Shown piece after piece: positions 30,250 through 60,855 of a stretch of 64,000 bases of DNA; position 1 is the stretch's first letter, and each line of letters opens with the position of its first letter. The notes under the pieces are model-generated. The model was not told the DNA's origin. It did not search any database and saw only the letters and a list, made by a program, of their open reading frames with translations. Origin of the DNA: an uncultured Bacteroides sp. (GTDB taxonomy: Bacteria > Bacteroidota > Bacteroidia > Cytophagales > Cyclobacteriaceae); assembly GCA_902168185.1 (NCBI GenBank), contig CABHOV010000047.1:62001-126000 (forward strand), given 5' to 3'. Position numbers and translations under genes: made by a program.

Positions 30250-30289
30250 GATTTGGTTTGGGTTGTTAGTGTTCAATAGATATATACTA

Positions 30290-40735: not shown

Positions 40736-41650
40736 TCATCTTTTCCGGAGCCATACACATAGCTGCATACCCGTGTTGGTCCATTCCATATAGGGTTTCA
40801 AAAAATAATCTATGACCTTAGGCATGGATGTCTGGCATACATAGTATTCATGCCATGCTACCTCATAGCCATGTAATTTGGCATGCTCGTGAAAAGATTT
40901 AAGCCCAAACTCATAAAGATGATAGGGCTCATGCATGGGGCTAATGTTGCTCACATAATCCGTCCCTTTTAATTTATAGAACAGGTTTAACAACTTATTG
41001 ATAAGCCAAGCTGACGAAGGAACTTCAATATGAATAACACCATTCGGTTTTAGCCATTTCAAGGCCTTTTCAATCGAGTCCGATGGATTATAAAGGTGTT
41101 CCAAGACTGCTCCAAAAGAGATGAAATCAAAATACCCTGCAGGATAGCTCATGTTTTCAATCATTCCCAACATTAGCTTATCGCGACCAACTCCCATTTG
41201 TGAAACAGCTCTTTCATAAAACTGCTCAGAAGCTTCAAAGCCGTGAGCGTCAAATCCAGCTTTGGATAACGCCAACATTGCCTTGCCCAAACCAGCTCCT
41301 ATATCCAAAGACTTCATGCCATCCTTAAAAGCTATAAGCTCCTTGGCACGAGTTATTTCGTTCTTAAAGTAGCTGTCCTCTACTGTAAAGTATTCTTTAG
41401 TCCAATAGGCTTCTGGCAATACTCCGTAGTGATCCTGCAGGTCGTGTGGTATTGGTTGAGGGTTTGAATATATCAGCTCACAATTTGAACACTTAACAAT
41501 TGTGGTGGTTATACCGATTTTACTCCTGGGATTTTTTCCCTGAGACTGGTTCAACCTCTTGCCTAAAACTTTATGACGCCTTGTTGGCGAACCACACATG
41601 TTGCAGGTATCAATATAGCTAAAGGTATAACGGAGTTGTTGCCTATTCAT
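40736..41650 (-). CDS. Class I SAM-dependent methyltransferase with N-terminal zinc knuckles
   Basis: 304 residues. An N-terminal zinc-binding part has CNMC and CSNC (about 17 and 53) like the sugar/C-methyltransferase and Methyltransf_23 families. The SAM motif I is LDIGAGLGKAMLAL (about 121), followed by HGFEAS (acidic residue of motif II) and FDFISFGAVLEHLYNPSD. The C-terminal part is helical. The type is common in surface polysaccharide or lipid modification, but no such genes are adjacent, so the substrate is unknown. It appears monocistronic. Confidence 0.85.
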   Translation of the reverse strand: MNRQQLRYTFSYIDTCNMCGSPTRRHKVLGKRLNQSQGKNPRSKIGITTTIVKCSNCELIYSNPQPIPHDLQDHYGVLPEAYWTKEYFTVEDSYFKNEITRAKELIAFKDGMKSLDIGAGLGKAMLALSKAGFDAHGFEASEQFYERAVSQMGVGRDKLMLGMIENMSYPAGYFDFISFGAVLEHLYNPSDSIEKALKWLKPNGVIHIEVPSSAWLINKLLNLFYKLKGTDYVSNISPMHEPYHLYEFGLKSFHEHAKLHGYEVAWHEYYVCQTSMPKVIDYFLKPYMEWTNTGMQLCVWLRKR

Positions 41651-42094: not shown

Positions 42095-43825
42095 TCACCC
42101 GCCAAGTATAAAATTATACCCCATTGTAACTGTAACGTCATTTGTATTGGCTTCTGAGGTGCTGCGCCATTGATTAAGCACATTCAGATTGAAGGTATGT
42201 TTTCGCTGTACTTTATATACTGCATGACACCTTACATTGAAGACATGATTGTCCCATTCATTCACACTACGGCTTGCGTTATAGGAGAGATTGGCTCCGG
42301 TTGTGATTCTCTTCTGTAATATACTTGCACTTATGCTGGCTATAGGCCCAACGGTTATAAAATCATCTCGACCAATTGTATTATAGGATACATTAAACCC
42401 AGCGGAAAAATTTCGCCCGGCGGTCATGCGTGATAGTGTATACATAACCGATGCGTTGTAAAACTGCGACAGATTTCCATTGCGTACCACACCGCCTTGC
42501 TCATCGGCAGTCTCCTGAAAACTAAGGTCTACACTTATACCTTTCATTTCATCTTCTGACTGCGAAAGCATATAGCTTGCTGACGCACTTGCATTCTGAG
42601 AAACTTGCGTATAGTCAAGCGTGTCGAGATTCTGGAAATTATCCAGCCTGTTTATGCTTAAAAACTGCGGACGAATACGCATGAAGGTCTGAAAGTTTGA
42701 ATATGTAAATGCTGAGGTCAGTTTATCAGACGGAGTATAGGATACATTTACGGAACCAATGAACCGTGTGGATGAACCTGACTTGGTGTTGTCGAGGTTA
42801 TCACGCTGGAAGCCCATGTTCATAGCCAGTTGCACTTTACTTTTGAACAACGGCTGGGCTGCGTTCACAGTAATATTTTCCAAGTCATTATTGAGATAGT
42901 ATGCACCCAGTGTTCTATATCCTGGATCAATACGCTCATACCCAACACCCAGTATTGTACTGGTAAATGTATACTGCAGCGATGACTTGAAAGCATGAAA
43001 ATAACCGGTGGATTCTTTTGAATCGATCGCGCGGCTAAAAAGATTACTGCCCTCAGAATCCGCTGCCCGCACATCTTCTGTTAAAGCACTCGTGGCATAT
43101 TCAACGGCTATATCCATATGCTGCCATACACGTGTTCCGGCATTAAAACTGATTACCGTATTGGCCATCGGGTATATCTGTAAACTATCAGGCTTCTTCT
43201 GAATTGAATTCACATCATCCCAAGCATGAAACGCAATCATACCCAACCTGTAATTATTCTTTTGATACTCTATTTTGCTCCCCCACCCCATGCGCTCATA
43301 AGCAGCCTGTGTAATACGGTTGGTTGTGTCATATTCAACAGCCTTCTGCAAACGACCATATATACCACTAACCTTTAATCCGCTGTCCTTTGGTTCTACA
43401 TCAACCCCGGCCCCAGTAAATAGATAGCCATTTACAGTATAGGGAGAATAAGTTGCTGCTATATTTCCAATATGTGCTGTTACTGATTTATAGGACGGAT
43501 GTATACTGAAACGGTTTGGCGGCACCGGGTACGAATAATCGCCACCAAAGCTGGTAAGTGTAAACGAAAACGGCAGGTTCACGAGCCCATATAGATTAAG
43601 ATTCATACTGCCATTAACAAAATAAGAAAACGGATCACGGCCGTAACCCCCATTGCCATTATAATAGATACCATTGGCAGACAAAGCTCCGTTAAATTTA
43701 AAGGGCTTGCCTTTGCCAAACTGATCACGCAGATTATCCAGACGTATAGATTGCCCATATGAAAACGACCCTACGAAGAGCGCCAACAGAACTAACAAGC
43801 AACGGTAAGAGTAGAGAGGATTCAT
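42095..43825 (-). CDS. Outer-membrane beta-barrel-like protein
   Basis: 576 residues with a signal peptide (CLLVLLALFVGSFSYGQ). The mature chain is a run of alternating amphipathic segments with aromatic girdle residues and ends in NDVTVTMGYNFILGG, as in barrel proteins. An N-terminal segment GNGGYGRDPFSYFVNGSMNL and FTGAGVDVEPKDSGLKVSGI are notable but I do not recognise a family. It is the last gene of the eight-gene locus and overlaps the PKD gene by 4 nt. It could be the outer-membrane anchor or channel for the surface proteins made upstream (inference). Confidence 0.75.
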   Translation of the reverse strand: MNPLYSYRCLLVLLALFVGSFSYGQSIRLDNLRDQFGKGKPFKFNGALSANGIYYNGNGGYGRDPFSYFVNGSMNLNLYGLVNLPFSFTLTSFGGDYSYPVPPNRFSIHPSYKSVTAHIGNIAATYSPYTVNGYLFTGAGVDVEPKDSGLKVSGIYGRLQKAVEYDTTNRITQAAYERMGWGSKIEYQKNNYRLGMIAFHAWDDVNSIQKKPDSLQIYPMANTVISFNAGTRVWQHMDIAVEYATSALTEDVRAADSEGSNLFSRAIDSKESTGYFHAFKSSLQYTFTSTILGVGYERIDPGYRTLGAYYLNNDLENITVNAAQPLFKSKVQLAMNMGFQRDNLDNTKSGSSTRFIGSVNVSYTPSDKLTSAFTYSNFQTFMRIRPQFLSINRLDNFQNLDTLDYTQVSQNASASASYMLSQSEDEMKGISVDLSFQETADEQGGVVRNGNLSQFYNASVMYTLSRMTAGRNFSAGFNVSYNTIGRDDFITVGPIASISASILQKRITTGANLSYNASRSVNEWDNHVFNVRCHAVYKVQRKHTFNLNVLNQWRSTSEANTNDVTVTMGYNFILGG

Positions 43826-45204
43826 TTTTTCTGAACTTTTATATCCACAAGTATATAGGACTGCAACCCATCATCATGGAATGACTTGATCTTGATAGCG
43901 CCCTTACGATTGTCCTGTGTTTTGAATAGTATGATGCGCGGCACCTGCACATCATCAAAAGGTTGAAGTCCTTTAGCCGTTGATGTAATGTTGAGCGCTT
44001 GCAAAGGAGCGTCTGTAATCATCTGGTCAAAATCACTTTCTGAAAACGTAATTCCGCATGCGCATTTATCGAGGGAGTTAACGAAATGCGTTATCTGCGC
44101 CTGCGGTATAGGGTCGAAGGTATATTCTTCCACAGAATCCGGGGAAGTAAATTTGTTAAAGGTGAACGTAGCGTTAAGTCCGAAGTATGCTATATCTACA
44201 TATTTAAACAAAGAATCCGGATCATTTTTATTGACGACTCTCCGCAAGCTTGTGGAGTAAAAACTGCCAATAGAAGCATGCGCTGTGTTGATACCCAGTT
44301 TAATATCGGTAAAGGTTCGAAGGCCCGTATTGGGCTTAACTACGATATCTTTGGTTATAGTCTTGGTCTCTTTACCATTGGAAGCTTGCAGCGTAATACT
44401 GTACGTACCGGCCTGCGAGAAATATATACTGGGTTGCTGCGCTGTTGTGTTACTGATCTGCCCACCACTGGATGACCATTGCCATTGCAGACCTCCTGAC
44501 GTTTTGTTCTTTAATACGACGCGCAGCGGGGCCTGGTAGTCATCATCTTCAAAGTCAGGAATGATTTCAAAGTCAGGAGATAATGCAGGACTTACTGATA
44601 TAGTTTGCACCAGCGAGTCGACAGCAGGGCCGTTCTCTACAATGAGTATAATTTTATGGTCACCCGATTCAACAAACTGGATATCCGGAGGATTCTCTCC
44701 TGTATATTCAGCAGGATTACCTTGTTCAAAGACCCAGCGGAATCCAGTACCGCCATTGGTTTTATTGGTGATCCGAACCGTTACCGGTGCTATATTGTTT
44801 GTTAAAACTTCTGTAGAAAAATCTGGTGTTACGCCATTATATACTGTAAGCGATACCGTTTTACTCTGGCGATCATCTTCACTCCACGCTTCAAGGGTAA
44901 TGGCGTGTGCACCGGCTTCAGTAAAGGTAATGATACCAGGGTCGCGCAAGGAAGACGTTGTTGGCTGTCCGCCTTCAAATGTCCAGGAATACTTTTCAGC
45001 GCCGGTGGTATTGTTCGCAATGGTGATACGAGCCGGTGTAGTATAATTTTCATTCCCGATGGTATAGGTAAAATCAATCGTAACAGGCACCGTCTCTTCC
45101 TGAAAGCACGCATATAAACCAAACGCGATCATCGTCATGCATACCTGCACCAACAACTTTCTCCAATCTATACCTATCAATTTTTTCTTCATATAGCGCA
45201 CCAT
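43822..45204 (-). CDS. PKD-domain lipoprotein
   Basis: 460 residues from ATG 45204 (an alternative ATG at 45192 gives a more usual signal). The lipobox is LYAC (Cys33). Three PKD-like domains follow, each with the pattern FxxxGxHxIxL: ITFTEAGAHAITLEAWSEDD, IQFVESGDHKIILIVEN and IYFSQAGTYSITLQASNG. The C-terminal third (about 300-460) is different, with CACGITFSESDFDQM. It lies 4 nt after the HEAT-like gene and overlaps the barrel gene by 4 nt, so it is co-translated. Probably a surface or periplasmic lipoprotein that packs with the barrel protein. Confidence 0.83.
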   Translation of the reverse strand: MVRYMKKKLIGIDWRKLLVQVCMTMIAFGLYACFQEETVPVTIDFTYTIGNENYTTPARITIANNTTGAEKYSWTFEGGQPTTSSLRDPGIITFTEAGAHAITLEAWSEDDRQSKTVSLTVYNGVTPDFSTEVLTNNIAPVTVRITNKTNGGTGFRWVFEQGNPAEYTGENPPDIQFVESGDHKIILIVENGPAVDSLVQTISVSPALSPDFEIIPDFEDDDYQAPLRVVLKNKTSGGLQWQWSSSGGQISNTTAQQPSIYFSQAGTYSITLQASNGKETKTITKDIVVKPNTGLRTFTDIKLGINTAHASIGSFYSTSLRRVVNKNDPDSLFKYVDIAYFGLNATFTFNKFTSPDSVEEYTFDPIPQAQITHFVNSLDKCACGITFSESDFDQMITDAPLQALNITSTAKGLQPFDDVQVPRIILFKTQDNRKGAIKIKSFHDDGLQSYILVDIKVQKK

Positions 45205-45208
45205 AACA

Positions 45209-46135
45209 TCATCGCTTCACAATAGTATAGTTCCCATTACGCTCGTTGAACCACGCCCGGATCGTTGCCAATGCTTTTGGATAGTCTTTCTCTACCAGGT
45301 CTCCGCTCGCACTAACAGCCACCGGATAATCTTTAATGACAGGTGCGAGCATCTCCATTATACGGTATGCACAATTGATTGATCGCTCCGATTCTGCATC
45401 TGGTGATGAACAATTATTTTCTTCACTGTATAATTCTTTTATCAGAAAGTCAATCGTTGTACGTGAACCTATATATACCAGGTCCGGGTACAACTCATAT
45501 ATAGTATCATCGTTGGAACCCAGCTTATTGGCTTTATCCATAATAGTTTGCTCAGACAGCACATCACCCATACGCGCCATCGCTACATATGCTGACCACG
45601 CATCTTGTCTTGACAAAGGAGTTTGCTGGTTTTGAAGATGCGTCTTTATAACACTCAACTGATCACGTATGTCGAGTTTGCCAATGAGTTTGAATAGTTT
45701 TCCGTTATAAGGAATTATAGAGTGATTCAACTCGCGGATATCTTCCAATGCAGTTTTATCAAAATCTTCTTTATTGAACCTGAACAACGCATTGGCTACC
45801 TGCCCGTTTATGCCCGTGTCTTTATCTCGCCAGCCTTTCAAAAGTATTTTTACTACTTCTTTATGTGTTTTCGTCTGCATACTGCTTTGTCCTAAACGAC
45901 TCACTAAATGATATGCTTCCGACCGCACGGCAAGCAATGTATCCTTCAGATAAGGAGACAATACCTGTATATAGCGGTTCTCTCCTATAGCTTGATCAAA
46001 TGTGAATGGGCTTGTAGATTCTTCTTTGGCTATGGCAGAGAAATAAGTCTGAATGTATTGCTGACCAAGGCATTCAATACCCGATAAAACCAGAATGATA
46101 ATTATATATTTTTTCAATGCTCTATTACTTTTCAA
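45209..46135 (-). CDS. Exported alpha-helical repeat protein (HEAT-like)
   Basis: 308 residues. The frame starts at a TTG (46135) within the end of the 131-aa gene (11-nt overlap); another TTG at 46117 would give the same signal peptide, and no ATG is available near the start. The hydrophobic segment KKYIIIILVLSGIECLGQ is a signal peptide. The mature part is helical with HEAT-like pairs (LAVRSEAYHLVSRLG, INGQVANALFRFNKED, SRQDAWSAYVAMARMGD). Lying between the toxin-immunity pair and the PKD lipoprotein, it may be a periplasmic scaffold or chaperone, or a second immunity factor. Family not recognised. Confidence 0.7.
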   Translation of the reverse strand: MKSNRALKKYIIIILVLSGIECLGQQYIQTYFSAIAKEESTSPFTFDQAIGENRYIQVLSPYLKDTLLAVRSEAYHLVSRLGQSSMQTKTHKEVVKILLKGWRDKDTGINGQVANALFRFNKEDFDKTALEDIRELNHSIIPYNGKLFKLIGKLDIRDQLSVIKTHLQNQQTPLSRQDAWSAYVAMARMGDVLSEQTIMDKANKLGSNDDTIYELYPDLVYIGSRTTIDFLIKELYSEENNCSSPDAESERSINCAYRIMEMLAPVIKDYPVAVSASGDLVEKDYPKALATIRAWFNERNGNYTIVKR

Positions 46136-46520
46136 ATCCCTTATCCTTTAGAATAGTATACACTTTCAGATTATGCTCTTTGATTCGTTGATGCTCGCGT
46201 TCAGTTTCAACTTTATCTGCGTATACTGGCCAGCCAAATTGTCCTTCAAAATTATCCAGTTCAATTATGTTACCGTCTTCATTAATGCGTTTATGCGTGG
46301 AATAGTTATCCGTTTTCAAATAATAGTCCAAAGCAAAATGATCGCTCAGATCTTTTACGAGCTTAAACTTAAGATCTCTACAACCACGGTGTCCTTCTCG
46401 ATAATAAATAGACTCGTATACCTTGTTCACTTCAAGTATCTCTGGTATTAACTGCCTATCATCGCTCAAGGCATGCTTGAGTCGCTCTTTAAAAATTTGT
46501 TTAGCATCCCAGAACTCCAT
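46125..46520 (-). CDS. Putative immunity protein
   Basis: 131 residues, cytosolic (no signal), charged, beginning MEFWDAKQIFKERLKHALSD. It starts 3 nt after the stop of the gene whose product ends in an ADP-ribosyltransferase-like domain; size, acidity, cytosolic location and position are those of polymorphic-toxin immunity proteins. I do not recognise a named Imm family. It is called by context only. It overlaps the next gene by 11 nt. Confidence 0.55.
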   Translation of the reverse strand: MEFWDAKQIFKERLKHALSDDRQLIPEILEVNKVYESIYYREGHRGCRDLKFKLVKDLSDHFALDYYLKTDNYSTHKRINEDGNIIELDNFEGQFGWPVYADKVETEREHQRIKEHNLKVYTILKDKGFEK

Positions 46521-46523
46521 ATA

Positions 46524-49500
46524 CTAAAGAATTTGCTGAACTTTAATTACCCATTTTTTCAGTGCTTTATCAAAAAGAGGAGCCGACACTACTTTAAATT
46601 GACTACCTGCTTTGATTAGTATTTCAGGCCTAGGCATGCCACCATAAATAACGCCATCAGCTAAATCTGATATTTCTTTACCTGTGGTATGTGCAATTTC
46701 AAAAATTACGTTTACTTCTGGTCGACCGCTAAAGGATGAACTGATTGAACCGCCACAAGAAGTGAAATCATTCCACAGTTTAGTATTCCCTAGACTATAG
46801 TCAGCAATAAAAGACGACAATGCCGAAGGGTCTATCTGAATTCCTCTATACACCAAAGCACCATTATAATTCGGCAATTTCTTAAGCGCAGCTTTTAACA
46901 GTTCAGAAAGCTCTTTCGTCTTATCTGCATTTATGCCGTTTCTCAGATCAGCGTTCAGGTCCCTATAAAAAAGCTTCGTTGTATATCCCCATAATGCGAA
47001 TGCTTCATCTGAAGTTAGCTTAAAGGCATTTTTATTAGCCAGAAAAAATTCCATGTCGGTCAAAAATTTTTGCCCCGCTCTGGAATAATGATATTCTGTA
47101 AAGTATGTAGCGATTTCACCTTCAGATTTCCCAAATTTCCTCATGGCAGTCATAAAGCCAGAAGGGATTCGTTTCCTTATTAAAAGATAATCAACCAGTT
47201 TTTTAGCATCCTTTGTCCAATCCTTTACACCAAGTCGAGCCTCTATCTTATCTAACAACGCTCTATACTTTGGACTCGCAGCAATCCAGGTTGCAGTCCC
47301 GGTAATCAGTCCGCTCGCTGCTGAATTTTGAATAACAGGCTTCCAGTCCATGGTTGTTATGACATCAGTCATGCCTGGATCTTTTCCTTGTTGCTTTATC
47401 TTGGTATATGCTATCTCATATTGTTTAGTTGTTTCCGTGACAAAGCTTGTTGCAGCCCCACCCAGTGCGGATAATCCAGCCTTAAATTTTCTACTCGCAT
47501 TAGGTGATATAAAAGCAGGCAGGTTGGCCGTTGCACAAGATATAGTGGCAGACACAAAGGCTTCTGTCTTACTAAACTCTTTATAGCTTGTAACACTGGA
47601 GAAGTCTGCGAAGGCAGGTTTACTTGCTTCCGGTATAGCATCATCGAACTGCATGGTTATCCACGTAGCAGTATAGTACATAGATAAGTCAAGACTTGCT
47701 CCTGTTAAACATTGCACGACTTGTGCGAGCAATTCATTGTCTTCATCATTCTCTAGTATTGGAATGACAAGTGCAGGATCGTGAATGAGATCCCATTGAT
47801 ACTTATGCAACACTATACCATCCGGACGAGTGTCCATCAGGTTGTCGGTTGTACCGGTCGCTAATGATGCATAGGTTTTATAGGTGTGTTCAAGTCGGAA
47901 GGCTCCGTGCCCTAATTCGTGAGCGATTGTTTTTATCAATGACCCGCCCCGCGCCAGATCCATGTAGATGAACCCTGCTGTTTTCTTTCTCGGCATATAC
48001 CCGAGCTTTGTTTTGCTCTCCGAACCGGATACGAGGAAAAGATAATACGTATCTTCCTCCAATGCTTTCTTCTGCTCATACTCGCTGATGAGTGTTTCCA
48101 TCTCAGCAGTATAATTGGACAGAAATTCGCTATCGCCATCATCGAGTCCATTATCGTCTACATCATATGTACTGGCAAACGGTTGATCTTTCTGTACCTG
48201 CCACTGCACAACTGCCTTGCCATATATAGCGTTTAGCTGCGATTGTATCTCTTGTGGCGACACATCCAATGTTGTTGCGTTCACCGGGACGAGCACCAAC
48301 TTGCGTATCACTTTGCTATAGCTGACCACATTCAGACTTCCGGCTTCCGTTAAAATCTCCTTGCCGTCAACACCGGTTTTCCGTATATAGGCTGTAACTT
48401 CATTCTTGTCACCGGTTCCATAACCGTGCACGCGAACATTTACTTCCTGTGGATTGGCACCGCGTTGGGCCTGTAGAGCTCCCGTTGTAGAACGGAATAC
48501 AAGGTCCTGCGGCAGAGGACTACCCTGCTGAGTGGAATATGCTTTTACCAGGTCGAATGAACCGGTTGCTACAGCTTTCCATGGACTATAGTATAGCTGC
48601 TTACCTTTTTGCTTTGCATCATAATTCGACTCATGATACGGCCTATATCGCAAGCGATCGAAACCATATACTGCATTGTCGGCCTGCGCAAAATCTATGG
48701 TATACGCTACGCTATCTATAGCATCAGGAGACTTGCCTTCAAACTTTTTCTGAATCTCATTAAATGTTTTCTCAGCCTCATCTCGTTTCTTTTTGGCGGC
48801 TTCTTTTTCTTCAGCAGATGTTGCCGTGGTATAGGCGGCACTGGCTTTATCGTATGCCTGCTTGCTCTCTTTTAGTTTTGTAACATCCTGATGGATTTCA
48901 TTGGAAAGCTCCGATGGCAATTCTTCGTTTGCCTCTTTTACAACCTTGTCCGTAAGACTGCTCAATGCAGCAGAGTCCATGGTAATGGTGAGATCTTTCA
49001 ATCGTGATACCAGTCCTTCATAGCCGCGGAATTGATCGAGTGTCTCATCAATATCTTTTATGCCCTCACCTTTCCCTCCATATTTCGTTACTACCTCTCC
49101 TGCTATAAGTTGATAGCCGGTATTTACCTGTATACCACTGAAGGTTACACTCACTTTTGCCTTTCCTAAAAACGGCACCGTCACATAGCCTTTACCGGTA
49201 TAGGTACCTGTGCCGCTTACTTCTTGTATCTTCACAGGGAAATCACCCGCGCGAAAAATATCACCAACCTTGAGGTTTTGTATCGGCTCTTTGTTGGATA
49301 TATCCGGATCGGGTACAATACTACAGTTGACAAATGTTTCTGAATTTCTCGCAGGTACCTCAACGGTTTTGATTTCACTGAATGTTGGCTGATCAGTATT
49401 GCAAAATGCGCCCACGCGATATTCATATACCAGTCCTGGTTGCATATCGTATACCAGCGCCATCGCCTGCTCTGTTTTCTGATCGAACCATGTAGCATTA

Positions 49501-50495: not shown

Positions 50496-50556
50496 AACGT
50501 TAATGATTTTCAGTATATATAGCATGGACATCCAATTCATCGACAGAGAAAATTTA

Positions 50557-53500
50557 CTAGTAGATCGTTACGCGAAGTATATAATTTCCTTTGGCAGTTT
50601 CCAGCAGCAGGAAATATACTCCTGAAGCAAGGTTCAGATCGTACGGTACCTCATAGCGCTGACTACCGAGTGCCTGACGATCATCTACAATAACATTGCT
50701 TGCTACCGAAATCATGCGCAAGCGAATCGGAGTTTGTTCGCGTAACCCAACGATGACCGAAAATTTACCATCGGATGGATTCGGGGAAACGGTAAGCTCT
50801 TCCAGGAATGGTGATTCATTCTTTGTATCCTCATCGAATGTACCGGCCACAACCACAATTGCCTTGGTGAAATCCTTTTCACACCCCTGTAAGTAGGCGC
50901 GCATATATATATTGTACGTTCCTGTATCGGCGAAGGTGAGTTCGGCTTTGTTGATCAACGAAGCTGTAAATTCAACTTCACCTTCTGAAGCCCACCACGT
51001 GACACTGTCGGGTTGAGGATCGCTGATGTTAACCAGAGTAACCAGTTTATCTTTAAAGGCCTGCGTGGTAACAATAAACTCTGCGCCTATAATTACTTCT
51101 ATACGTCTTATGGCAATATCATCTTGACCGCGGCAATCATGTGAATCCACTACCTGTACGGCATAGGTTCCATTTTCTGAAAGTGTGACCGCGCTGGTCT
51201 GCGCAGTAAAGCCGTTCGGGCCACTCCACTGGTATTGTGCTGCGGGGTCATCAATCGATGCATCCGCTATATATACCTGATCGGTGCATAATGTGCGGTC
51301 TTTTCCGAGGTCAACATTTACGGGAGCCGGATCCATCAACTCATATCTTCGATAGTTTATGCAATCATTGTCATCCGTAATTCGCACGGTATAGATACCA
51401 GAAGGCAGTTGCTGTATATCTTCCGTCTCTTCACCATTGCTCCAGCTATATTTGTAAGGTGGTGTTCCGTCAACCACGGTAATATCAATGCTTCCGTTTT
51501 CATAGCCAAAACACTGTGGGTTTGTAAGCAAACTATCCACCTGCAGCGGTGAGGGTGAAACAACATTGCCATTGGCTGTAGCGGTACATCCGCGAATATC
51601 TTTCACCAGGACAAAGTAACGTCCTTCGATGAGGTTTATATTCAATGCTGTCGTTGCACCATCCGACCAGCTATAGGTATAGGGCAATGTACCTCCGGTA
51701 GAGGTAACTTCTGCACTGCCATCCGTTCCGGAGCTACAGCTTATCGGCGTAGTCGCAATAGCTGCCGTTAATACATCGGGTTCTACCAATAAAAAGGGAT
51801 CTGATACTTTGGTAATGTTATTCTTATCGAGAATTCGCACCCTATATATACCTGTCTTCAACTGGGTGGCTATGCTATCCTGTTGTGTAATGGACTGAGG
51901 CGTCCCTCCTACATCTTTGAGCCATTCATATCGGTATGGAAGATCATTCTGATATGGCACACCACCTTTTGCATGTGCCACAAGTTCGCCATCGTCATAT
52001 CCATGACAACTTACAAAATGCCATTCGGCTATTGCTACAACCAGAGGTGGCGGTTCAATGAGGCGAAATATATCACTCACCACGGTACATCCTTTGCGAT
52101 GATCGGGATGCGCCAAAGCATATTGACTATCGTATGCGCGCAGTTGATAATATCCATCGCCAAGACTATCGATGTTTGCCTGATAGCCTTGTCCAAGCGG
52201 TGCGTTGTTATAGAGTGAATCGTGCAGCAGGTTAACAGGGTCAAACCACTGCACAGTATAGCTCTGATCCGGAAATGGCGTACCACCTACAAGGATAGTT
52301 TCTATATACCCATCTTTATAGTGATAGGCACGTGGATCGGTAGTTTTAGAAAAACCAACGTGCAGCGAGTCAGTTGGCTGATTTACCAACACCGCTTTGG
52401 CGCGGGCTGCATCAACACACTGATTGCCATCCATCACTTTAAAACCATATATACCGTAACGAAGAAATTCCAGTGTATGCGTTGTTGCCTCAGCAAATGT
52501 TACCAGCACTGAATCAGCAGCACCACCAGGCAAATACTGAAAACGATAATTGCCAACACCGCCATCGGCAACAAGATGAATTTTACCATCACCACCATCG
52601 TGACAATGTACTGCCTCTGGTGTAAGCGTTGATGTAATCGGCCTGGGCCGGATCAACTCAACGTTGCGTGCATGGTTTACCGGATTGTCCGTAAACGTAG
52701 GCACCTCTTTAAATTTACCGAGTAACCTGATCTGATAACTTCTGTCTGAAAAAAGTCTGCGCGGCCAGGTAAAACTGTTATCAGTCTCGAGTGTAACATC
52801 AATAAACTGATCGATCGTTACTGAATTATCTGCTGCATCGGTAACCAGAATCGTGAGACTCTCCGGCTCCCCGAGCCCACTTACGTGCAAAGGTCTGTTG
52901 AAAATTACTTTGAACGATCCGTCCTGTGGTTTATCAAAGCAACGATCGGGATCCGGTGTAACAGACACTATATTCGGTGCAGAGAGTCTTGCGGAAAGTG
53001 TGAGCGTTTCGGATTCAGCGCCGTTACAATCCACAATGATCTTGAAGAATATATTGTTGTTATGATACTTCCAGAACTCATCGCCGAGAATATCATAGCC
53101 GGATATATTTAACCGGCTTTGTCCTTGAAATTTAGCCGGAAGGTTTGTCCAGTTCACGCCATCCAAGCTATATACCCAGTGGTAGAAAGACGCAGGGTTA
53201 CCGCGAGGCCCCAGTAGCACGACTCGATTACTGGTATCGGAGGGCAATATATAGGAAGTGCTTGGCCCATACTTCAATGGGAATTTAATCTTCTTGTATA
53301 CAACTCTGAGGCTACCCGCAGACGCATCCGGAAAGAGATTGAACGGATAGGTAACATCCAGACTATTTGTGAAAGCCGGCAGAGTAAATGTGTTTGAAGT
53401 ATTAAATCCCCTGACGATACGACCGTTGACGGTTTGACCGGAAGTCGTTAGCAAAACAGAACGCACGTCCGATCTTAACAAGATCACGGAATCTTTTCTG

Positions 53501-54105
53501 TTCACCGCGGTGTTTCTGGACCATGAGTCCAGGTAGCCCGCGAAAACACGATCGCTGCCAGTGGTAAACATAGCATCCACTGCATAGGATGTTCTCCTGC
53601 GATTGGTGCCGTTGTTTGGCATTGACAACGTTGTGGTAAGACGATTTGCTGCCGGTTGAATATCTACGGTAAGTTCGCTGCTGTTAAATCCTCTGAAAAC
53701 ATTTCGGTATAGTCTGTTCACACAGGGGTAATCGGTATTGAGGTCCAAAGGCAAGTATATATTTCCTTCATCAATTCTTCTATAGCCACACGAGCGATAT
53801 CGCGGACTTTGCCTGTGAGCTTTACCAAACGCGATAACACGTCTTACGCGGTTATCACTTCGAAATGAAAATTTACGATAGAATGCCACCGTACCACCGC
53901 CACCATGGCCGTTGCTTACAATGGTTTGCGATGTACCATCTTCAAATTCCAGGATGATATCATAGCGGCTTCCACAGCCTGAGCTCAGATCGCCTCCATA
54001 GTTTACACCACCGGATACCGTGATCATGTATTCATTGGAAAAATCAGTCTGCGCGGCAGCCTGATAGAAAACTAAAAACAAACAGAATTGTAAAAGTCTT
54101 TTCAT
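50557..54105 (-). CDS. SprB-repeat protein with T9SS type A sorting domain
   Basis: 1182 residues with a signal peptide (RLLQFCLFLVFYQAAAQ). The N-terminal 480 residues are a beta-rich region (YMITVSGGVNYGGDLSSGC). Then come SprB-type repeats, recognised by CxxxxDGxxxxxxxGGxxPYxYxW patterns: VHCHDGGDGKIHLVADGG, VSCHGYDDGELVAHAKGG, ISCSSGTDGSAEVTSTGG and PQCFGYENGSIDITVVDG, and a PKD-like module before the end. The final 80 residues (VSPNPSDGKFSVIVG ... ASGVYFLLLETAKGNYILRV) are a type A sorting domain. SprB is the main gliding adhesin of Flavobacterium; this shorter relative is probably a surface filament. It lies between the Fn3 protein and the toxin gene with gaps of 25 and 61 nt. Confidence 0.88.
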   Translation of the reverse strand: MKRLLQFCLFLVFYQAAAQTDFSNEYMITVSGGVNYGGDLSSGCGSRYDIILEFEDGTSQTIVSNGHGGGGTVAFYRKFSFRSDNRVRRVIAFGKAHRQSPRYRSCGYRRIDEGNIYLPLDLNTDYPCVNRLYRNVFRGFNSSELTVDIQPAANRLTTTLSMPNNGTNRRRTSYAVDAMFTTGSDRVFAGYLDSWSRNTAVNRKDSVILLRSDVRSVLLTTSGQTVNGRIVRGFNTSNTFTLPAFTNSLDVTYPFNLFPDASAGSLRVVYKKIKFPLKYGPSTSYILPSDTSNRVVLLGPRGNPASFYHWVYSLDGVNWTNLPAKFQGQSRLNISGYDILGDEFWKYHNNNIFFKIIVDCNGAESETLTLSARLSAPNIVSVTPDPDRCFDKPQDGSFKVIFNRPLHVSGLGEPESLTILVTDAADNSVTIDQFIDVTLETDNSFTWPRRLFSDRSYQIRLLGKFKEVPTFTDNPVNHARNVELIRPRPITSTLTPEAVHCHDGGDGKIHLVADGGVGNYRFQYLPGGAADSVLVTFAEATTHTLEFLRYGIYGFKVMDGNQCVDAARAKAVLVNQPTDSLHVGFSKTTDPRAYHYKDGYIETILVGGTPFPDQSYTVQWFDPVNLLHDSLYNNAPLGQGYQANIDSLGDGYYQLRAYDSQYALAHPDHRKGCTVVSDIFRLIEPPPLVVAIAEWHFVSCHGYDDGELVAHAKGGVPYQNDLPYRYEWLKDVGGTPQSITQQDSIATQLKTGIYRVRILDKNNITKVSDPFLLVEPDVLTAAIATTPISCSSGTDGSAEVTSTGGTLPYTYSWSDGATTALNINLIEGRYFVLVKDIRGCTATANGNVVSPSPLQVDSLLTNPQCFGYENGSIDITVVDGTPPYKYSWSNGEETEDIQQLPSGIYTVRITDDNDCINYRRYELMDPAPVNVDLGKDRTLCTDQVYIADASIDDPAAQYQWSGPNGFTAQTSAVTLSENGTYAVQVVDSHDCRGQDDIAIRRIEVIIGAEFIVTTQAFKDKLVTLVNISDPQPDSVTWWASEGEVEFTASLINKAELTFADTGTYNIYMRAYLQGCEKDFTKAIVVVAGTFDEDTKNESPFLEELTVSPNPSDGKFSVIVGLREQTPIRLRMISVASNVIVDDRQALGSQRYEVPYDLNLASGVYFLLLETAKGNYILRVTIY

Positions 54106-54130
54106 AGATCCTTACCCAATAGCGTGTGTA

Positions 54131-56206
54131 CTAATATTTAACCTCCAACCATTTAATCTTGCTCACCTCTCCTTTTCTGGTGACTACCCGTATACCATAG
54201 CTATACTCGGTATTTACGGCTAGCTTCTCGTCTACTGTGCGCTTCTCCTCGCGCTTGAGTACACGCCACAGTGTAGCAGGAGATCCTTTTATAGCTTTAT
54301 AGAGCTGATACTCCTCAACGTTATCCTGCGAATCGCGCCAGAACAATTCGATGTAGCGGTTTTGCCGGTCGATGTACACATCGAAGGCATTCACCGTTAT
54401 ATCACCGGGTCTGCGAATAACTTTTATACTTACCGGTGCTGAAGGTTTTGATTCGAGACCACTGGAATCGCCTGCTACCAATGTATAGGTATATACAGTA
54501 CCGCCTGCTACATCAGCATCCTGATACTCACCACTCGTGTGGGCTCCAAATTTTTTAATCTGCTTCCACTCCTTCTGCTCTTCACTCTTCCTGTAGATAA
54601 CATGTGATGCCACATCATCATCATGGCAATCAGACCAGCGCAGCAATACTTCATTTCCCGTCAGTTCACATTTTGTAAACAGCGGACTGGTTGGAGGAAT
54701 GATATCCGGTTTAACCGCGGCTACCGGTGTTGAGAAAGCTGATTGATTATAGCGTTGATCCAATGCCGTAACCGTATAGTATACTTTGCGATTGGTGATG
54801 CGCATGCTTACGCTATCCGTAAAGGTCGTCCCGATATATACTGTATCGGTGAGCGGTGTGGGCTCCGCTGTCTTTACATACGTACGAAATATCTTATAGC
54901 CATATATATCTTTCTCTGTGTTGGGTGCCCAGGTAATGGTAGCAACGCCGAGTGAATCGATTACAGCCCTTATGCCCTGGGGAGCCTGGGGCGGTATACT
55001 ATCCACGGGCTGCACCAGCACCGACATGGATGTGCGCGAGTCTCCGCTTACAGCATCGGCCGTGATGGTAAAGTAATTGGTTGGAAAAAGCTTCGTATAC
55101 CGAAGGAGACGTTGGGTAGCCGGTATATTTTGCATCACCGGTATATAGGGGCCTTCTTCGTTGGGTGACTGACTGAGTGTAAAGCCGCGAATCAATGCAT
55201 TGCCTGCTCGTTCGAAAGACCAGCTGAGTTCCAGTTCACCGGCTTCATTGATTACTGACTTGGTAATATGAGGCACATACTCGAGTATCTTTTGACCAAC
55301 CCCGGATACTTTCGCAGAAGGCGGGCCTATCTCGCTAAACGAAGTTACTCCCCGCACGCGATAGTAATAGGTAACGTTGTTCATGCCCAATGCATCTACA
55401 TAGTGAATTCTGCCGGAAGGCTTTACAGCATCGCTCTCACTCATTTGCATGATGGGGCGCTCACTGATCCTGTAGAAATTCTTCCCGTCCGAGGAACGCT
55501 CGATATAGTATGAATTATAGTAATCTTTGAGTGAATTATAGTCCCAGCTGATCACTGCAGTTTTGTCACTGAACTGAGCTAACACTTCTGTCGGTTCCGG
55601 GAGTGGCTTGTAATCTTTCAAACCAATGAACACTGCTGCCGAATCGATCGCCAACTGGCCCGATGGAACTTTTGATTTTATCCGATAAAGATACTTTTCG
55701 TTTTCTTTTACATCGGTATCCGTCAGCCCCCAGCCTGCCAGTTGTGCTATGGTAAAATTATGATCGGCCGCATAGAGTGAAAGTGCAAAACGCTGTTCAA
55801 GCTCCTGACCTTTGTTGATGGACGATAGTATAGTCTCTTTATCTGTACTGCTTACTTCAAAATTTTCACCGTACAAGGCCTGTGCTATAATGGCTGCATA
55901 CTCGTTACTGTTGGCAGGCACGATCCATGCACTTTGTTCGGCAGGCTTGAGTATACCTATATTTTTACGTTCCGGTGTTCTCAGAATAACGCTGTCGCGG
56001 ATAACGGTATACCGTACTACCTCAAAACCGTGTTGATTGGACAGCTTCCATGCACGCGGTTGATTTACCGCCCAGCGTATCAGGATCTGCTTTTTCTGCG
56101 CGCGACCAATAGCTTTTACGAAGTTCGTTCGTTGGCTGTACCCGGTCAGGGCCGTGCAGCAAATGATCAGTAGCGTGATGAATATATGGAGGCGATCTTT
56201 TCTCAT
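54131..56206 (-). CDS. Fibronectin type III repeat protein
   Basis: 691 residues with a signal peptide (IFITLLIICCTALTGYSQ). The mature chain starts with a non-Fn3 segment (about 25-200) with IRWAVNQPRAWKLSNQHGFE, and then four or five fibronectin III modules (PLPEPTEVLAQFSDKTAVIS, PQAPQGIRAVIDSLGVATIT, TSPLFTKCELTGNEVLLRWS). No sorting domain is visible at the C-terminus (VVTRKGEVSKIKWLEVKY), so it may stay in the periplasm or be held by its partners. It overlaps the 1550-aa gene by 4 nt (ATGA), so the two products are probably made in equal amounts and work together. Confidence 0.83.
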   Translation of the reverse strand: MRKDRLHIFITLLIICCTALTGYSQRTNFVKAIGRAQKKQILIRWAVNQPRAWKLSNQHGFEVVRYTVIRDSVILRTPERKNIGILKPAEQSAWIVPANSNEYAAIIAQALYGENFEVSSTDKETILSSINKGQELEQRFALSLYAADHNFTIAQLAGWGLTDTDVKENEKYLYRIKSKVPSGQLAIDSAAVFIGLKDYKPLPEPTEVLAQFSDKTAVISWDYNSLKDYYNSYYIERSSDGKNFYRISERPIMQMSESDAVKPSGRIHYVDALGMNNVTYYYRVRGVTSFSEIGPPSAKVSGVGQKILEYVPHITKSVINEAGELELSWSFERAGNALIRGFTLSQSPNEEGPYIPVMQNIPATQRLLRYTKLFPTNYFTITADAVSGDSRTSMSVLVQPVDSIPPQAPQGIRAVIDSLGVATITWAPNTEKDIYGYKIFRTYVKTAEPTPLTDTVYIGTTFTDSVSMRITNRKVYYTVTALDQRYNQSAFSTPVAAVKPDIIPPTSPLFTKCELTGNEVLLRWSDCHDDDVASHVIYRKSEEQKEWKQIKKFGAHTSGEYQDADVAGGTVYTYTLVAGDSSGLESKPSAPVSIKVIRRPGDITVNAFDVYIDRQNRYIELFWRDSQDNVEEYQLYKAIKGSPATLWRVLKREEKRTVDEKLAVNTEYSYGIRVVTRKGEVSKIKWLEVKY

Positions 56207-59200
56207 TTGATCGGATTAGTATACATGAATATTGCTGAAGAACCCTGCTTACCGTTCGGAAGTATATATTGAAACTTCACCGGATAATTACCGGCCCGGA
56301 TCATCGGGTAGCCGCCCATGATAATGGATGCATAACGATTCTGCTGCTCTGTACCCAGGAATGTATTCACCACCTGTGTTTGCAGATCAATGAAATCCTG
56401 ATGGTATACATCCGGCAGGTTGTATATATAGGGAACGCGTGTTGTAGTAATACCGGTTAGTTCGGAAAGCTCTGCCTGCATCTGGTAGAGAGACATAATC
56501 GGCAACGCGCGTGACGGGTAGAATCCGAATGTTGCTGTATCACGGTGCAATCTGATCTGGCCCGCGATCGGGTACTCCTGGTATAATAACGGATATATAT
56601 CTTGTCGATAATAAGCATCCTGCGGCAATGCAGCGACAACGGACAAAGCCTGGCGGCCGCTATATTGTGTACCGATCAGTTCCACCACATCGAACCCTTC
56701 ATAGGTAGCAACCTGTGGCTGAAGGCTGATAACATCGGAAGATATCTTTCCGATCAAAGGCTGAACGATGGTCATGCTCTTGATCTTGTCGCTATACAAT
56801 GCATGCTTGCTGGTGTGGAAAGAATATTCGATCAGGCTCTTACCAAGATCAGTCTGCTGTACTTCAGAGGCTTGGTTTTGACGAATGGTCAGATCGCCTG
56901 CATCGTTTTTGATAACCTGCTCGACAGTACCTTGTTGTGCCGATGAAGAGTCACGTGGTGTAGCAACCATACCAATGGTATAGCTAGCGTTAAGATCCAG
57001 TGCGTCCAGTGTGAAGTCGATTCGCTTTTCAGCAGCGTTATATACCACTTCCTGCTTCTTCGCGGCTTGTCCCGTCTTGCCGTTTACGATCTCGTAACGC
57101 CATGCATCGGAGAAGAGATAGGACTGACCACGTTTCAACTGTATATACCCTTCTTTACTTTCATCGCGATAGTAGTTACGTTGCTCGGCAACGGGATAGG
57201 CATATTCAATATTGGACAGTGGTATATTATCGGGAGCATCACCTGTGGTAAAGGTTATCTCTTTAAACTCCAGTGCCTTTTTACCTTCTTCATATACCGG
57301 CTGCCAGGTGCTGCCTTGCTGTAGTTCGAAGCTAACTTTTACAACGGCCTTAAGCTCTTTGTGCGGTGGCAATGTTTCCGTAGAATAGAATGTAACCAGA
57401 TCGCGGTTTTTATTCCATTCCAATCGTCCAACAATAGCCGTACCGTTGTCGGCTACAGTAAACTCTTCCAGTTTTATGCGGTATGACTTACTGCCCTGAT
57501 CATCTTCTACATAGAACGGATGTTCCATGCGCATATTGAAAGCCGCCTGCGGTGCTGCAAATACATCTACATCTTTGGTCTTATCGATAGGTTTAAGATC
57601 CGCGATAACATTTAACGCCAGCGGACTTCCTGAATCATTTACAATTTCGCAGTCGCTACCCAGTGCAACCTTCAACCGGAAATTACCGCTCACCAATCCA
57701 CCGAGTATATCTACCTTCACCGCCAGATATCCTTTAAACATGGTTGGATTTGGCAGTCGTGCCTGCAGGAGTACCGCCGAACCTCCGCGCAATACAGAGA
57801 ACTTCTTATTGATTCCGAATATCTTGATCTTCACGCCAACTTCTCCCTGCATATAGGCATAGGCTTGACCATTCGCATACCATCCCCCTATACCGATCGG
57901 TTCTGTTTGTCCTGCGCAATGTGCATCTCCATAATCGCGAAGCATGATGTCGAACCCAGCACCCGCCTTGAAGCTGGCATACAGTATAAATGAGCGCATC
58001 TCACCGGTTTCAACCGAGAAATTTGTCCCGAAGGCAAAACCTCTTCCATCCTCCAATGCATTGGCATCGCGCATATAGTCGAGCTTGGCCATCTCTATAC
58101 CTAACATATCAGCAATGATGGTGGGTGGCGGTGGCGAATCGAGGACTTTACTTCCGGCCATGAAATACCCGCCGGTTTTCACACTAAAACTTCCTATACC
58201 GAACTGAATGCCCATGCGATCCACCGGAGTACCCATATAGATATACCAGCTGTCGGAGTCTATATGCATCACCGACCATCCTGCGCGGTTATCATTCCCT
58301 ATACCACGCAACAGACCTCCGGCAACATTCACGTATACATCAAAGGTGGAGTGAAAACTCTTGTTGGTAAAATCCATCATCATCCCTACATGCGCAGAGA
58401 TCATTCCGCTTTCGCCCATTTTCTTGGCATCGCCCAGCAAAGCTGCTGCTGCCTGCGAAGGTTCATTTACTTTGAGTGTCTCCAGTGTTTGCGCCAGTAA
58501 CGGATTATCTTTTACAAATGCATCTTCATACTTGGCGAAGTTGGCTTGCTGTTCGGTAACAAAGCCTTCAATATTTTCAGTACCTGGAATTTTACCTATG
58601 AACTTGGCATCTCCGAAGAAACCTATATAGCTGATACCATAGCTCTTGGTAAATCCTATCTCGAAGGACGCTTCACCGTCTACAACACTTCGTGTCGCTA
58701 CGTTAAAGAGGACAGCAGCTTTGATACCGAAATGTATTTTATCATCCGGTATATAATCCATTACAGTTAAGGATGACCCTGCAACAACACCTTTTGCCTG
58801 ACGCTTCATGTGATAGTATGCACCACCGCCAAAACCATGTATACGCAACGGACCGACTACTGGTATTCCATCGCCATACGAAACAGAACCTTCTACATAC
58901 CAGTATCGATATGTAGTGGAACCAAACATAGCTTTGGCTTTTACTTCTACTTTTACGGGAATGAACTTCGCCTGCAACTGACCGGCTATACCATCGCCAT
59001 AAATAGGATCGTCATCGAGTATACTCAGAGCACCTTCAATTTCGAGGCTTCCGCTGATGGTGGCCTTGATCTGAATTGCACTGATGCCTATACCATCGTA
59101 CTTCCACGACTGCGATCCATCTTCGCGTTTTTCTAATTTACTTTTTACTTCAAGACGCGTAGTAGCTCCGAATTGTCCTGACATCAGGTTAAGCTTAAGG

Positions 59201-60855
59201 TTGAAACCAAGCTTTGCTTTGCCGCCTTGGGCGGTGAGTCCGATGTCGTTGATGGATACGGGGAAGTTTGCAAATTTCAATTCACCCTTATAACCGAAGT
59301 ACTCAACCTCTATATAGGGAGTTTCCGTCATGATGTGAAGCGACTTGAATTCTATACCTTTAAATTCGCCCATGGCATCCGAACCGTCTTCGTTCTTGGA
59401 CACCTTCATACTCATGCGGCCGTGAAGCATAGCCTCCGGCCTGAACTTGTTATCGGTAAGTTTTAATTGCACGTATGAATTCGGATCGATCTCAACGGTA
59501 GCATTGAGTGCCGAGAAACTAAACTTGTTGCGTACACTTACTTTCAACAAGTATTCATCCGGCATCATAACAGCTTCATAGGCAAATGTATCTTTGTCAG
59601 CAATGGGAAGCCCGAGCATACCCTTGAACGATGCACCGGTAAGGTTGTTCGCTTCCAGCTTGATTTGCATTTCGTCCACTGATAATTTCCAGCCGGAGGC
59701 CGTACCTTTTTCTATCGGCAAAAGATTTTTGCCGGTAAAGGATCCTGACAAACCATTGTTATCGATCAACATATCCAACCCGGTGAAAGAAATTCTCTTA
59801 TCAGGCTTCGTCTTATCTTCAAAAGCTTCCGGTAATACAATCTCCACACTCTTTGCATATACACCACGCCACAACTCGGTGTGACCAGCTTCAAGGTATT
59901 CTGCTTCGTAGCCTTCCGGGTATGCAACGGATGGGCTATTGCGTAAGTCACTGAAGTCAAGAACTGCTGTCTCAATACTAAAGCGCATGTCCTTAATCAA
60001 AGGCATTTCAAAATCAGGCAGGGTAAATTCTACCAGTATATCATTCCAATCTGTTACAACCGTTGTGAATGAACCCTTTACACGCTTGTCAGCATTTTCA
60101 TAACGCTTTCCATTGGGATCTACGGGTATGAGAAGAGTTCGTGGAAACTCTATATCGGCTGCCAGTCCCACTTCCTTGAATCCGTTACAATCAAAGCTTA
60201 GATATGTTTTAGAATCCGGAGCAGCAGCTTTGGGATTTGTACTGCCCTTGAGAATCAACACACTGGCTCCACCATTGAAGCGTATAGGTATATCTCCGAG
60301 CAACACAAGTTTGGCATCGCCCACGATACCTCCCTCGTAGGTGAGCTTTATACCTTCCAGTCCGAAATATAGTTCACGTGGTTCCTGTGGAATATCCAGT
60401 TTGGCAAAGGCCGTGAATTCGGCATGACCAGCCTTGAATTTTACTTCACTAATGGCGATGGTAATGGTCGTACTGTTGACAACCTTCTTAAAGCCTATTG
60501 GAAGTTCATGCAGCTTGTCAGCGGTCAATGACGTTACAAAAGTTCCTAACTCATTGAGTTTATCGATCGCAGCTTTTGCCTGTTCACGGCTAAAGGCTGC
60601 CTCGCCATCTTCACCTATATATTGTTTGAGATAAGCTTCTGTTAATTCACTTTCTGAAGAATGAAGAGAAAAATTTCTTTCGGTATACCCCGTACCTACC
60701 GGAAAAATCCGGTATTGTTCAATTGATTTCTGTCCCTTGCTGGTGGCAACCAAAGTAGAATCTTTTTCAAGACCAAAGGCTTGATGGCCGGAAGCAAACA
60801 GCAACAAGACTAAGCAAAGTGCCTGTACAGACACAATAAAGTTCTTACAACACAT
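56203..60855 (-). CDS. Giant beta-rich exported protein of unknown function
   Basis: 1550 residues with a signal peptide (FIVSVQALCLVLLLFASGHQAFG). The body from about 100 to 1130 is a long run of amphipathic beta segments with repeated lines like IEFKSLHIMTETPYIEVEYF and LDMLIDNNGLSGSFTGKNLL, resembling the elongated beta-taco or barrel-like folds of AsmA/TamB or large outer-membrane proteins. Gly-rich stretches (IHGFGGGAYYH, GIGGWYANGQAYAYMQG) occur in the middle. From about 1170 there are Ig-like beta modules (EFTVADNGTAIVGRLEWN, LPPHKELKAVVKVSFE). No sorting domain. It is the first gene of the eight-gene locus. No family recognised; it may be the main structural or conduit part of the complex. 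Confidence 0.75.
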   Translation of the reverse strand: MCCKNFIVSVQALCLVLLLFASGHQAFGLEKDSTLVATSKGQKSIEQYRIFPVGTGYTERNFSLHSSESELTEAYLKQYIGEDGEAAFSREQAKAAIDKLNELGTFVTSLTADKLHELPIGFKKVVNSTTITIAISEVKFKAGHAEFTAFAKLDIPQEPRELYFGLEGIKLTYEGGIVGDAKLVLLGDIPIRFNGGASVLILKGSTNPKAAAPDSKTYLSFDCNGFKEVGLAADIEFPRTLLIPVDPNGKRYENADKRVKGSFTTVVTDWNDILVEFTLPDFEMPLIKDMRFSIETAVLDFSDLRNSPSVAYPEGYEAEYLEAGHTELWRGVYAKSVEIVLPEAFEDKTKPDKRISFTGLDMLIDNNGLSGSFTGKNLLPIEKGTASGWKLSVDEMQIKLEANNLTGASFKGMLGLPIADKDTFAYEAVMMPDEYLLKVSVRNKFSFSALNATVEIDPNSYVQLKLTDNKFRPEAMLHGRMSMKVSKNEDGSDAMGEFKGIEFKSLHIMTETPYIEVEYFGYKGELKFANFPVSINDIGLTAQGGKAKLGFNLKLNLMSGQFGATTRLEVKSKLEKREDGSQSWKYDGIGISAIQIKATISGSLEIEGALSILDDDPIYGDGIAGQLQAKFIPVKVEVKAKAMFGSTTYRYWYVEGSVSYGDGIPVVGPLRIHGFGGGAYYHMKRQAKGVVAGSSLTVMDYIPDDKIHFGIKAAVLFNVATRSVVDGEASFEIGFTKSYGISYIGFFGDAKFIGKIPGTENIEGFVTEQQANFAKYEDAFVKDNPLLAQTLETLKVNEPSQAAAALLGDAKKMGESGMISAHVGMMMDFTNKSFHSTFDVYVNVAGGLLRGIGNDNRAGWSVMHIDSDSWYIYMGTPVDRMGIQFGIGSFSVKTGGYFMAGSKVLDSPPPPTIIADMLGIEMAKLDYMRDANALEDGRGFAFGTNFSVETGEMRSFILYASFKAGAGFDIMLRDYGDAHCAGQTEPIGIGGWYANGQAYAYMQGEVGVKIKIFGINKKFSVLRGGSAVLLQARLPNPTMFKGYLAVKVDILGGLVSGNFRLKVALGSDCEIVNDSGSPLALNVIADLKPIDKTKDVDVFAAPQAAFNMRMEHPFYVEDDQGSKSYRIKLEEFTVADNGTAIVGRLEWNKNRDLVTFYSTETLPPHKELKAVVKVSFELQQGSTWQPVYEEGKKALEFKEITFTTGDAPDNIPLSNIEYAYPVAEQRNYYRDESKEGYIQLKRGQSYLFSDAWRYEIVNGKTGQAAKKQEVVYNAAEKRIDFTLDALDLNASYTIGMVATPRDSSSAQQGTVEQVIKNDAGDLTIRQNQASEVQQTDLGKSLIEYSFHTSKHALYSDKIKSMTIVQPLIGKISSDVISLQPQVATYEGFDVVELIGTQYSGRQALSVVAALPQDAYYRQDIYPLLYQEYPIAGQIRLHRDTATFGFYPSRALPIMSLYQMQAELSELTGITTTRVPYIYNLPDVYHQDFIDLQTQVVNTFLGTEQQNRYASIIMGGYPMIRAGNYPVKFQYILPNGKQGSSAIFMYTNPIK

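Follow-up and report, generated by a model that had tools for sequence, protein, structure and literature searches.

The window analyzed here, a stretch of 64,000 nucleotides from an uncultured member of the Cyclobacteriaceae (contig CABHOV010000047.1, assembly GCA_902168185.1), carries between positions 42095 and 60855 eight minus-strand genes that, in our judgement, probably represent the locus of an antibacterial polymorphic toxin of the TANFOR class with its own conserved surface apparatus. The most likely form of this reading is a surface complex, assisted by the type IX secretion system (T9SS), on which a TANFOR toxin would be displayed whose warhead can be exchanged and would release itself; what we infer is the assembly, the route of export, the cleavage and the killing. 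The evidence comes from the recurrence of homologues of the accompanying genes around TANFOR toxins, from proteins in which TANFOR is fused to the largest of these companions, and from an exchange of the toxin tail, jointly with the small gene behind it, between two closely related genomes. The genes are numbered from p8 (1550 aa, first in the reading direction) to p1 (576 aa, last), and the features of the locus are:

56203..60855, minus strand: p8, 1550 aa, predicted to be exported, no known family; C223, C980 and C1069 invariant
54131..56206, minus strand: p7, 691 aa, predicted to be exported, Fn3; near p8 in most relatives mapped
50557..54105, minus strand: p6, 1182 aa, SprB repeats (2.2e-28) and T9SS type A tail (TIGR04183, 2.7e-8)
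50566..50790, minus strand: T9SS C-terminal sorting domain, p6 residues 1106-1180 (TIGR04183)
46524..50540, minus strand: p5, 1338 aa, predicted TANFOR polymorphic toxin
50031..50408, minus strand: TANFOR domain, p5 residues 45-170 (TIGR02542, 5.5e-9, under the curated cut-off)
47886..47921, minus strand: zincin motif HELGHGAFRLEH, p5 residues 874-885 (pattern match)
46584..47021, minus strand: ADP-ribosyltransferase-like tail, p5 residues 1174-1319 (PF01129, 2.3e-5)
46064..47266, no strand assigned: exchanged cassette of p5 tail, p4 and p3 start, unmatched in Ohtaekwangia koreensis
46125..46520, minus strand: p4, 131 aa, without a signal peptide; travels with the tail and is probably the immunity protein
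45209..46135, minus strand: p3, 308 aa, predicted to be exported, HEAT-like
43822..45204, minus strand: p2, 460 aa, PKD lipoprotein; Cys33 followed by FQEE
42095..43825, minus strand: p1, 576 aa, outer-membrane-barrel-like, no known family

All eight open reading frames (ORFs) are present where an earlier note on this DNA, made from the letters alone, had placed them, and they are packed more tightly than it described (overlaps of 4-11 nt, gaps below about 65 nt): the junctions along the eight genes are -4, +25, +16, +3, -11, +4 and -4 nt, that is, from -11 to +25 nt. The claim that almost all products are exported and one is cytosolic agrees with an N-terminal hydrophobic core in seven of the eight (Kyte-Doolittle 1.9-2.8; 0.64 for p4), export being called here from the hydrophobicity of the N terminus. 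The protein names first proposed were also broadly matched in Pfam and NCBIfam, with Fn3 in p7, SprB and T9SS domains in p6, PKD in p2 and, below the family cut-off, a weak HEAT match in p3.

Fusion and linkage of the accompanying genes with TANFOR

Six long proteins (G072, G021, G146, G029, G028 and G044) carry TANFOR at residues ~20-465 followed by most of p8, all found with profiles that contained no fused protein; since G021/G146 and G028/G044 are same-genus pairs, the six full fusions come from four families. A seventh fusion, truncated by the end of its contig (L233), joins TANFOR to the first half of p8, and weak p8 segments were seen in four more TANFOR proteins (G036, and G003, G023 and G095, the latter three from one genus). 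Such fusions are good evidence that p8 and TANFOR function together. The window copy of p8 has no confident Pfam or NCBIfam family and no significant match among PDB sequences (best E 0.22), and in profile comparisons the two halves of p8 were unrelated to each other and p1 was unrelated to either half. Its three cysteines are conserved in 77 of 77 aligned sequences, and with an odd number one of them could be free to bond with another protein. By analogy with the cysteine bonds to partners reported for SprF and GldK in the accessible text of PMC12635249, a free p8 cysteine might speculatively serve this role.

We have mapped the genes, with in-house profiles, in 38 contig stretches plus the window, in 80 named loci recruited by p8 and in 20 further stretches. 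The 40 wide p8-bearing stretches contained p7 in 33 cases, p6 in 29, p5 in 35, p1 in 32 and p2 in five (six of the eight stretches missing p1 are contigs under 24 kb). The 80 named loci, whose flanks reach 10 kb at the most, gave p7 in 73, p6 in 62, p5 in 34, p2 in 34 and p1 in 18; three of these loci share groups with the wide stretches. These counts are minima, since the loci were selected for p8, their flanks are short and many contigs end inside a locus.

A less biased test was provided by 148 genomes of the order, with Fisher p values uncorrected for relatedness. Here p8 was found in 29 genomes, p1 in 33 (of 36, the three with weak matches being excluded and some ten weak or fragmentary places dropped) and both in 26 (p 2e-19); since at most three p8 candidates were scored per genome, p8 may be undercounted, and the window's own genome indeed has a locus, C121, that is missing from the list. 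TANFOR appeared in 17 genomes, in 16 of them with p1 (p 2e-11) and in 12 with p8 (p 1e-6). Once the p8 segments of one locus had been merged, 44 p8 places resulted, 32 of them on a p1-bearing contig and all of these 32 within 30 kb of p1. Along the same lines, 17 of 24 TANFOR places lie on a p1-bearing contig, every one of the 17 within 10.5 kb of p1. The genome of the window holds three more such loci, on contigs C29 (p8-p7-p6-p5-p2-p1), C44 (a short TANFOR protein and a separate 674-aa gene) and C121 (where the p5 tail is Tox-SHH).

Taken together, homologues of p8, p7 and p1 and, less regularly, of p6 and p2 recur around TANFOR toxins. A conserved apparatus with a variable effector tail, the pattern that a search of gene neighborhoods had been expected to reveal, was largely found, given the co-occurrence of p8 and p1 and the exchange of the tail with p4 described below, and the opposite pattern, genes scattered separately in relatives, was not seen in the mapped loci. 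A p8 relative was found in 45 of 395 sampled Bacteroidota genomes and is encoded in 489 of 496 pattern-matching stretches of a species-genome collection, so that this could be a common and overlooked means of competition. One p8-p7 locus (L200) is filed under a metagenome-assembled genome (MAG) of Phycisphaerales, an assignment that seems likely to stem from contamination.

Exchange of the toxin tail together with p4

The locus DNA of O. koreensis DSM 25262 (L142, L221) is 93-94% identical to that of the window on either side of a single, sharply bounded 1.2-kb block (window 46064-47266), whose contents have no counterpart in O. koreensis. Within the block lie the p5 tail, beginning near residue 1092, the whole of p4 and the start of p3 (~24 residues). 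Outside it, the p5 body is near identical up to residue ~1092, p8, p7 and p6 show 90-100% identity in each 60-residue bin (mostly at least 95%), and p3 (apart from its first ~24 residues), p2 and p1 remain in O. koreensis despite the change of tail. The replacement consists of an EndoU nuclease tail (PF14436, 9.5e-16) followed by an unrelated 108-aa gene with no Pfam or PADLOC family. A MAG of Chitinophaga (L124/L222; 93% in p8) has kept the ADP-ribosyltransferase (ART) tail together with an evident homologue of p4.

Toxin tail and p4 form an exchangeable cassette, as seen in one exchange between two genomes. Since p4 sits downstream of p5 and travels with its tail in this genome pair, it is likely the immunity protein of that tail, which agrees with the immunity-like role first proposed for the cytosolic member of the set; p4 matched no Pfam, NCBIfam or PADLOC family. 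Two closely related genomes with one apparatus and two warheads amount to a clean natural experiment.

The predicted toxin p5

Judged by its sequence, p5 is a TANFOR-class polymorphic toxin. The TANFOR domain was recognized with TIGR02542 (E 5.5e-9, 36.1 bits; curated cut-off 67) and the C terminus resembles ADP-ribosyltransferases (PF01129, 2.3e-5), its 24.3 bits being just over the cut-off of 22.3. At other loci the tails include Tox-SHH, AHH, EndoU and a HINT accompanied by an AHH match under its threshold. Scanning 20 of 22 listed tails, we found four that match a nuclease toxin family (one below cut-off), two with HINT only and 14 with nothing. When p5 was searched against plasmid records, four partial matches were obtained, none at 80% coverage.

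Many p5 proteins have the motif HE.[GA]HG...H ahead of the variable region; behind it come residues resembling a Met-turn, [LV]M[DSA], and a segment of the type QWDLIHDP. Over 84 scored entries (duplicates included), this zincin motif was present in 24 of 39 long TANFOR proteins, in none of 34 short ones and in none of 11 fused to p8, 14 of the long and 13 of the short proteins being truncated. The Met-turn-like residues could be recognized by eye in 20 of the 21 distinct zincin copies, and in 13 of the 21 by a stricter script pattern. The zincin pattern also matched three proteins that had no TANFOR label; two of these, incomplete at the contig start, are zincin-like and the third is not. No Pfam or NCBIfam family names the zincin of p5. 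According to the accessible text of PMC3482391, the toxins of the Photorhabdus virulence cassettes (PVC), which are extracellular contractile injection systems (eCIS), also have a zincin ahead of a variable tail, a metallopeptidase with the motif HExxHxxQ-E that is thought to process the toxin. By this analogy the p5 zincin probably releases the tail. A PVC-type identity of the zincin itself was considered and rejected, the p5 proteins having HE.[GA]HG...H in place of HExxHxxQ-E.

Some TANFOR proteins are short (759-790 aa in G056:C3, G040:C1 and G024:C63) and are followed by a separate gene of 982-1430 aa; the second genes of G056:C3 and G040:C1 end in EndoU and AHH toxin domains, and that of G024:C63 gave a weak HINT match. 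Split toxins are also noted in the accessible text of the 2020 paper on this class (PMC7073777).

The companions p7, p6, p2 and p1

The T9SS type A tail of the window p6 scored 33.7 bits with TIGR04183 (cut-off 23), which places this protein among the T9SS substrates; it is the only one of the eight proteins to carry such a tail. As the p6 profile also matches PKD proteins, we have given the P6 label only to proteins that matched the profile, exceeded 700 aa and had no other label. A T9SS-like tail pattern was present in 60 of 82 P6-labeled proteins with an intact 3' end. Some p6-like proteins are giants, with 5431 aa (G015:C2:280160-296455), 3330 aa (G077:C112:66977-76969), at least 4224 aa (G130:C1, from 455001) and at least 3155 aa (L235). 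Many flavobacterial loci (L168, L169, L171, L177, L194, L198 and others) have two to four consecutive proteins of ~380-610 aa between p7 and p6, export-like in those whose starts were inspected.

For p2 we have used a profile seeded with two proteins and then rebuilt from strong matches. A lipoprotein-type cysteine followed by x-[KQRHN]-[ED] is found in 37 of 41 homologues. This motif, like the Cys33-FQEE of the window p2, resembles the surface-export signal of Bacteroidota lipoproteins. The last gene product of the locus, the window p1, ends in GYNFILGG, and 15 of 23 p1 homologues end in Phe, the typical context of an outer-membrane beta-signal. Neither the window p1 nor the 23 homologues matched a Pfam family (E <= 0.01), the window copy had no confident NCBIfam family either, and no PDB sequence match was obtained. 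The twin-cysteine C-tail is not conserved, nine of the 23 members being devoid of any cysteine. A PorP/SprF carrier was considered for p1 and rejected, there being no Pfam family in 23 members and no invariant cysteine column.

The host genome encodes the SprA translocon of the T9SS, with SprA_N matches of 6e-153 and 5e-147 in two long ORFs and 80 T9SS-tail matches, 75 of them over the cut-off. The SprA-like ORFs lie at G000:C73:361058-365653 and C73:113588-118156, in open frames of 2410 and 2415 aa.

Relation to known systems

In 2020 Jana, Salomon and Bosis (PMC7073777) described the TANFOR proteins of Bacteroidetes as a class of polymorphic toxins, so the toxin class is already known, and TANFOR is listed among trafficking markers in the accessible text of another paper. 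In the 2020 paper, as far as its accessible text goes, SprB, Fn3, PKD and T9SS-tail domains are enriched around TANFOR and export by the T9SS is proposed. With these published toxins the window locus shares an N-terminal TANFOR domain, a Sec-like start, a variable toxin C terminus, a downstream gene likely to confer immunity and SprB, Fn3, PKD and T9SS-tail neighbors. What goes beyond them is p8 and the barrel-like p1 as recurring components and the p8-TANFOR fusions. We have found no p8-like protein, barrel or HExxHG zincin in that text, where the words "barrel", "protease" and "peptidase" do not occur, although the maps of its Figure 4 may show such genes unlabeled. Nor was a description of p8, p1 or the zincin found in the open-licence papers searched, p8 and p1 being nameless and so hard to search for. 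The system appears, then, to be partly known: the toxin class is published and several of the accompanying proteins appear to be undescribed. Of the earlier interpretation, the conserved gene set with a variable tail stands and the word "new", in the light of the 2020 paper, does not. That work, in its accessible text, left open how TANFOR proteins exit the cell, and the gene set, the exchange and the fusions name proteins with which this can be tested.

Other systems offer partial likenesses. Like the SprB-SprF gliding adhesin system (accessible text of PMC12635249 and PMC9870892), the locus combines genes for a surface protein with SprB repeats and for a barrel-like protein of the outer membrane. 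Unlike SprB-SprF, p1 and its homologues have no Pfam family (0/23) and no conserved twin-cysteine tail, and the window p6 has a type A tail. The likeness to PVC stops at the toxin, as the eight proteins have no Pfam match to parts of an injection system. Two-partner secretion and contact-dependent inhibition (CDI) also rely on a large exported toxin with an exchangeable tail and an immunity gene, features that resemble those predicted here; the difference is that the eight proteins lack Pfam or NCBIfam matches to the toxin and transporter families of those systems and that the p1 homologues lack any Pfam match.

Proposed mechanism and alternatives

In the T9SS-assisted complex that we favor, p5 would reach the periplasm by Sec and then be presented on the outer face of the outer membrane, where its TANFOR end would lie against p8 and bind it. 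The barrel-like p1 and the p2 lipoprotein would hold or pass p5, p7 would serve as an Fn3 linker, and p6, exported by the T9SS, would be an optional repeat-rich arm reaching neighbors. On contact, the zincin would cleave p5 at some point behind the zincin domain, freeing the ADP-ribosyltransferase-like tail to act in the cytosol of a competitor. Kin would be shielded in the cytosol by p4, and p3 may be a periplasmic accessory, independent of the tail type. The main uncertainty is the passage of p5 across the outer membrane, either by the T9SS without a recognized tail or through p1.

Several observations weigh against this reading. Five of the 17 TANFOR genomes have no p8 match (four of the five show weak p8 segments), and gene order and strand vary among relatives, which speaks against a fixed machine. 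In five of the six full fused loci (one of them on an 11-kb contig), as well as in G063 and G034, p6 is missing and thus is not a fixed part. No recognized T9SS sorting domain was found in p5, p7 or p8 (Pfam/NCBIfam, E <= 0.05). The TANFOR matches in p5 and in all 148 genomes are under the curated cut-off, the ADP-ribosyltransferase match of p5 is weak, and 16 of the 20 scanned tails, including those of L064 and L065 from the window's genome, match no toxin family.

A bolder version of our reading, to which we give somewhat less than even weight, takes p8, p7, p2 and p1, with p6 optional, as a dedicated and so far undescribed machine in the outer membrane and at the surface of Bacteroidota, which would display and fire TANFOR toxins and would amount to a separate delivery system. 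The T9SS would be borrowed only for p6, the TANFOR end would dock on p8 as its scaffold, and the warhead would be freed by a zincin of a new family.

It seems unlikely that p5 is ordinary T9SS cargo, with p6-p8 as independent hitch-hiking adhesins and p1 and p2 as ordinary envelope proteins. The T9SS tail on p6, the Sec-like start of p5 and the published hypothesis tying TANFOR to the T9SS (accessible text of PMC7073777) would fit such a view, but p5 itself has no T9SS tail, and both the p8-TANFOR fusions and the short distance of p1 from TANFOR (no more than 10.5 kb at all 17 places where they share a contig) point to a functional unit. More doubtful still is that p1 acts as a dedicated, two-partner-like outer-membrane export channel for TANFOR proteins, independent of the T9SS. 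In 26 of the 48 stretches holding both, the p1 and TANFOR genes are less than 400 bp apart on the same strand, the pair is kept in stretches without a labeled p8 (e.g., G139 and G024:C13), and since p1 has no Pfam family no known carrier class is favored, all of which would suit a channel of its own. This is countered by the lack of any TpsB-like or other Pfam match in p1, by the presence of a p6-type protein in 29 of the 40 wide stretches and by the T9SS tail of the window p6. Finally, a complex for adhesion to or predation on eukaryotic microbes, with the ADP-ribosyltransferase as anti-eukaryotic effector, is very improbable, for although the accessible text of the 2020 paper (PMC7073777) predicts some such TANFOR tails, including an ADP-ribosylating one, the joint exchange of the tail with a small gene lacking a signal peptide fits kin immunity and the alternative tails that could be named belong to nuclease families.

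Other features of the window

None of nine proteins matched the anti-phage defence models of PADLOC. Scans for regulatory signals were uninformative (39 sigma-70-like sites vs 44.5 expected; 20 terminator-like sites vs 13.9 expected), and the Bacteroidota-type promoter pattern was not found upstream of p8 or on the strand of the eight genes. Adjoining p1, at window 40736-41650, is a gene that looks methyltransferase-like by eye; in its place O. koreensis carries a gene of 1037 aa in the opposite orientation (L221:3039-6152). Farther away, at window 19238-30447, a SusC/SusD-type pair beside two FG-GAP/UnbV_ASPIC proteins forms a putative nutrient-uptake cluster.

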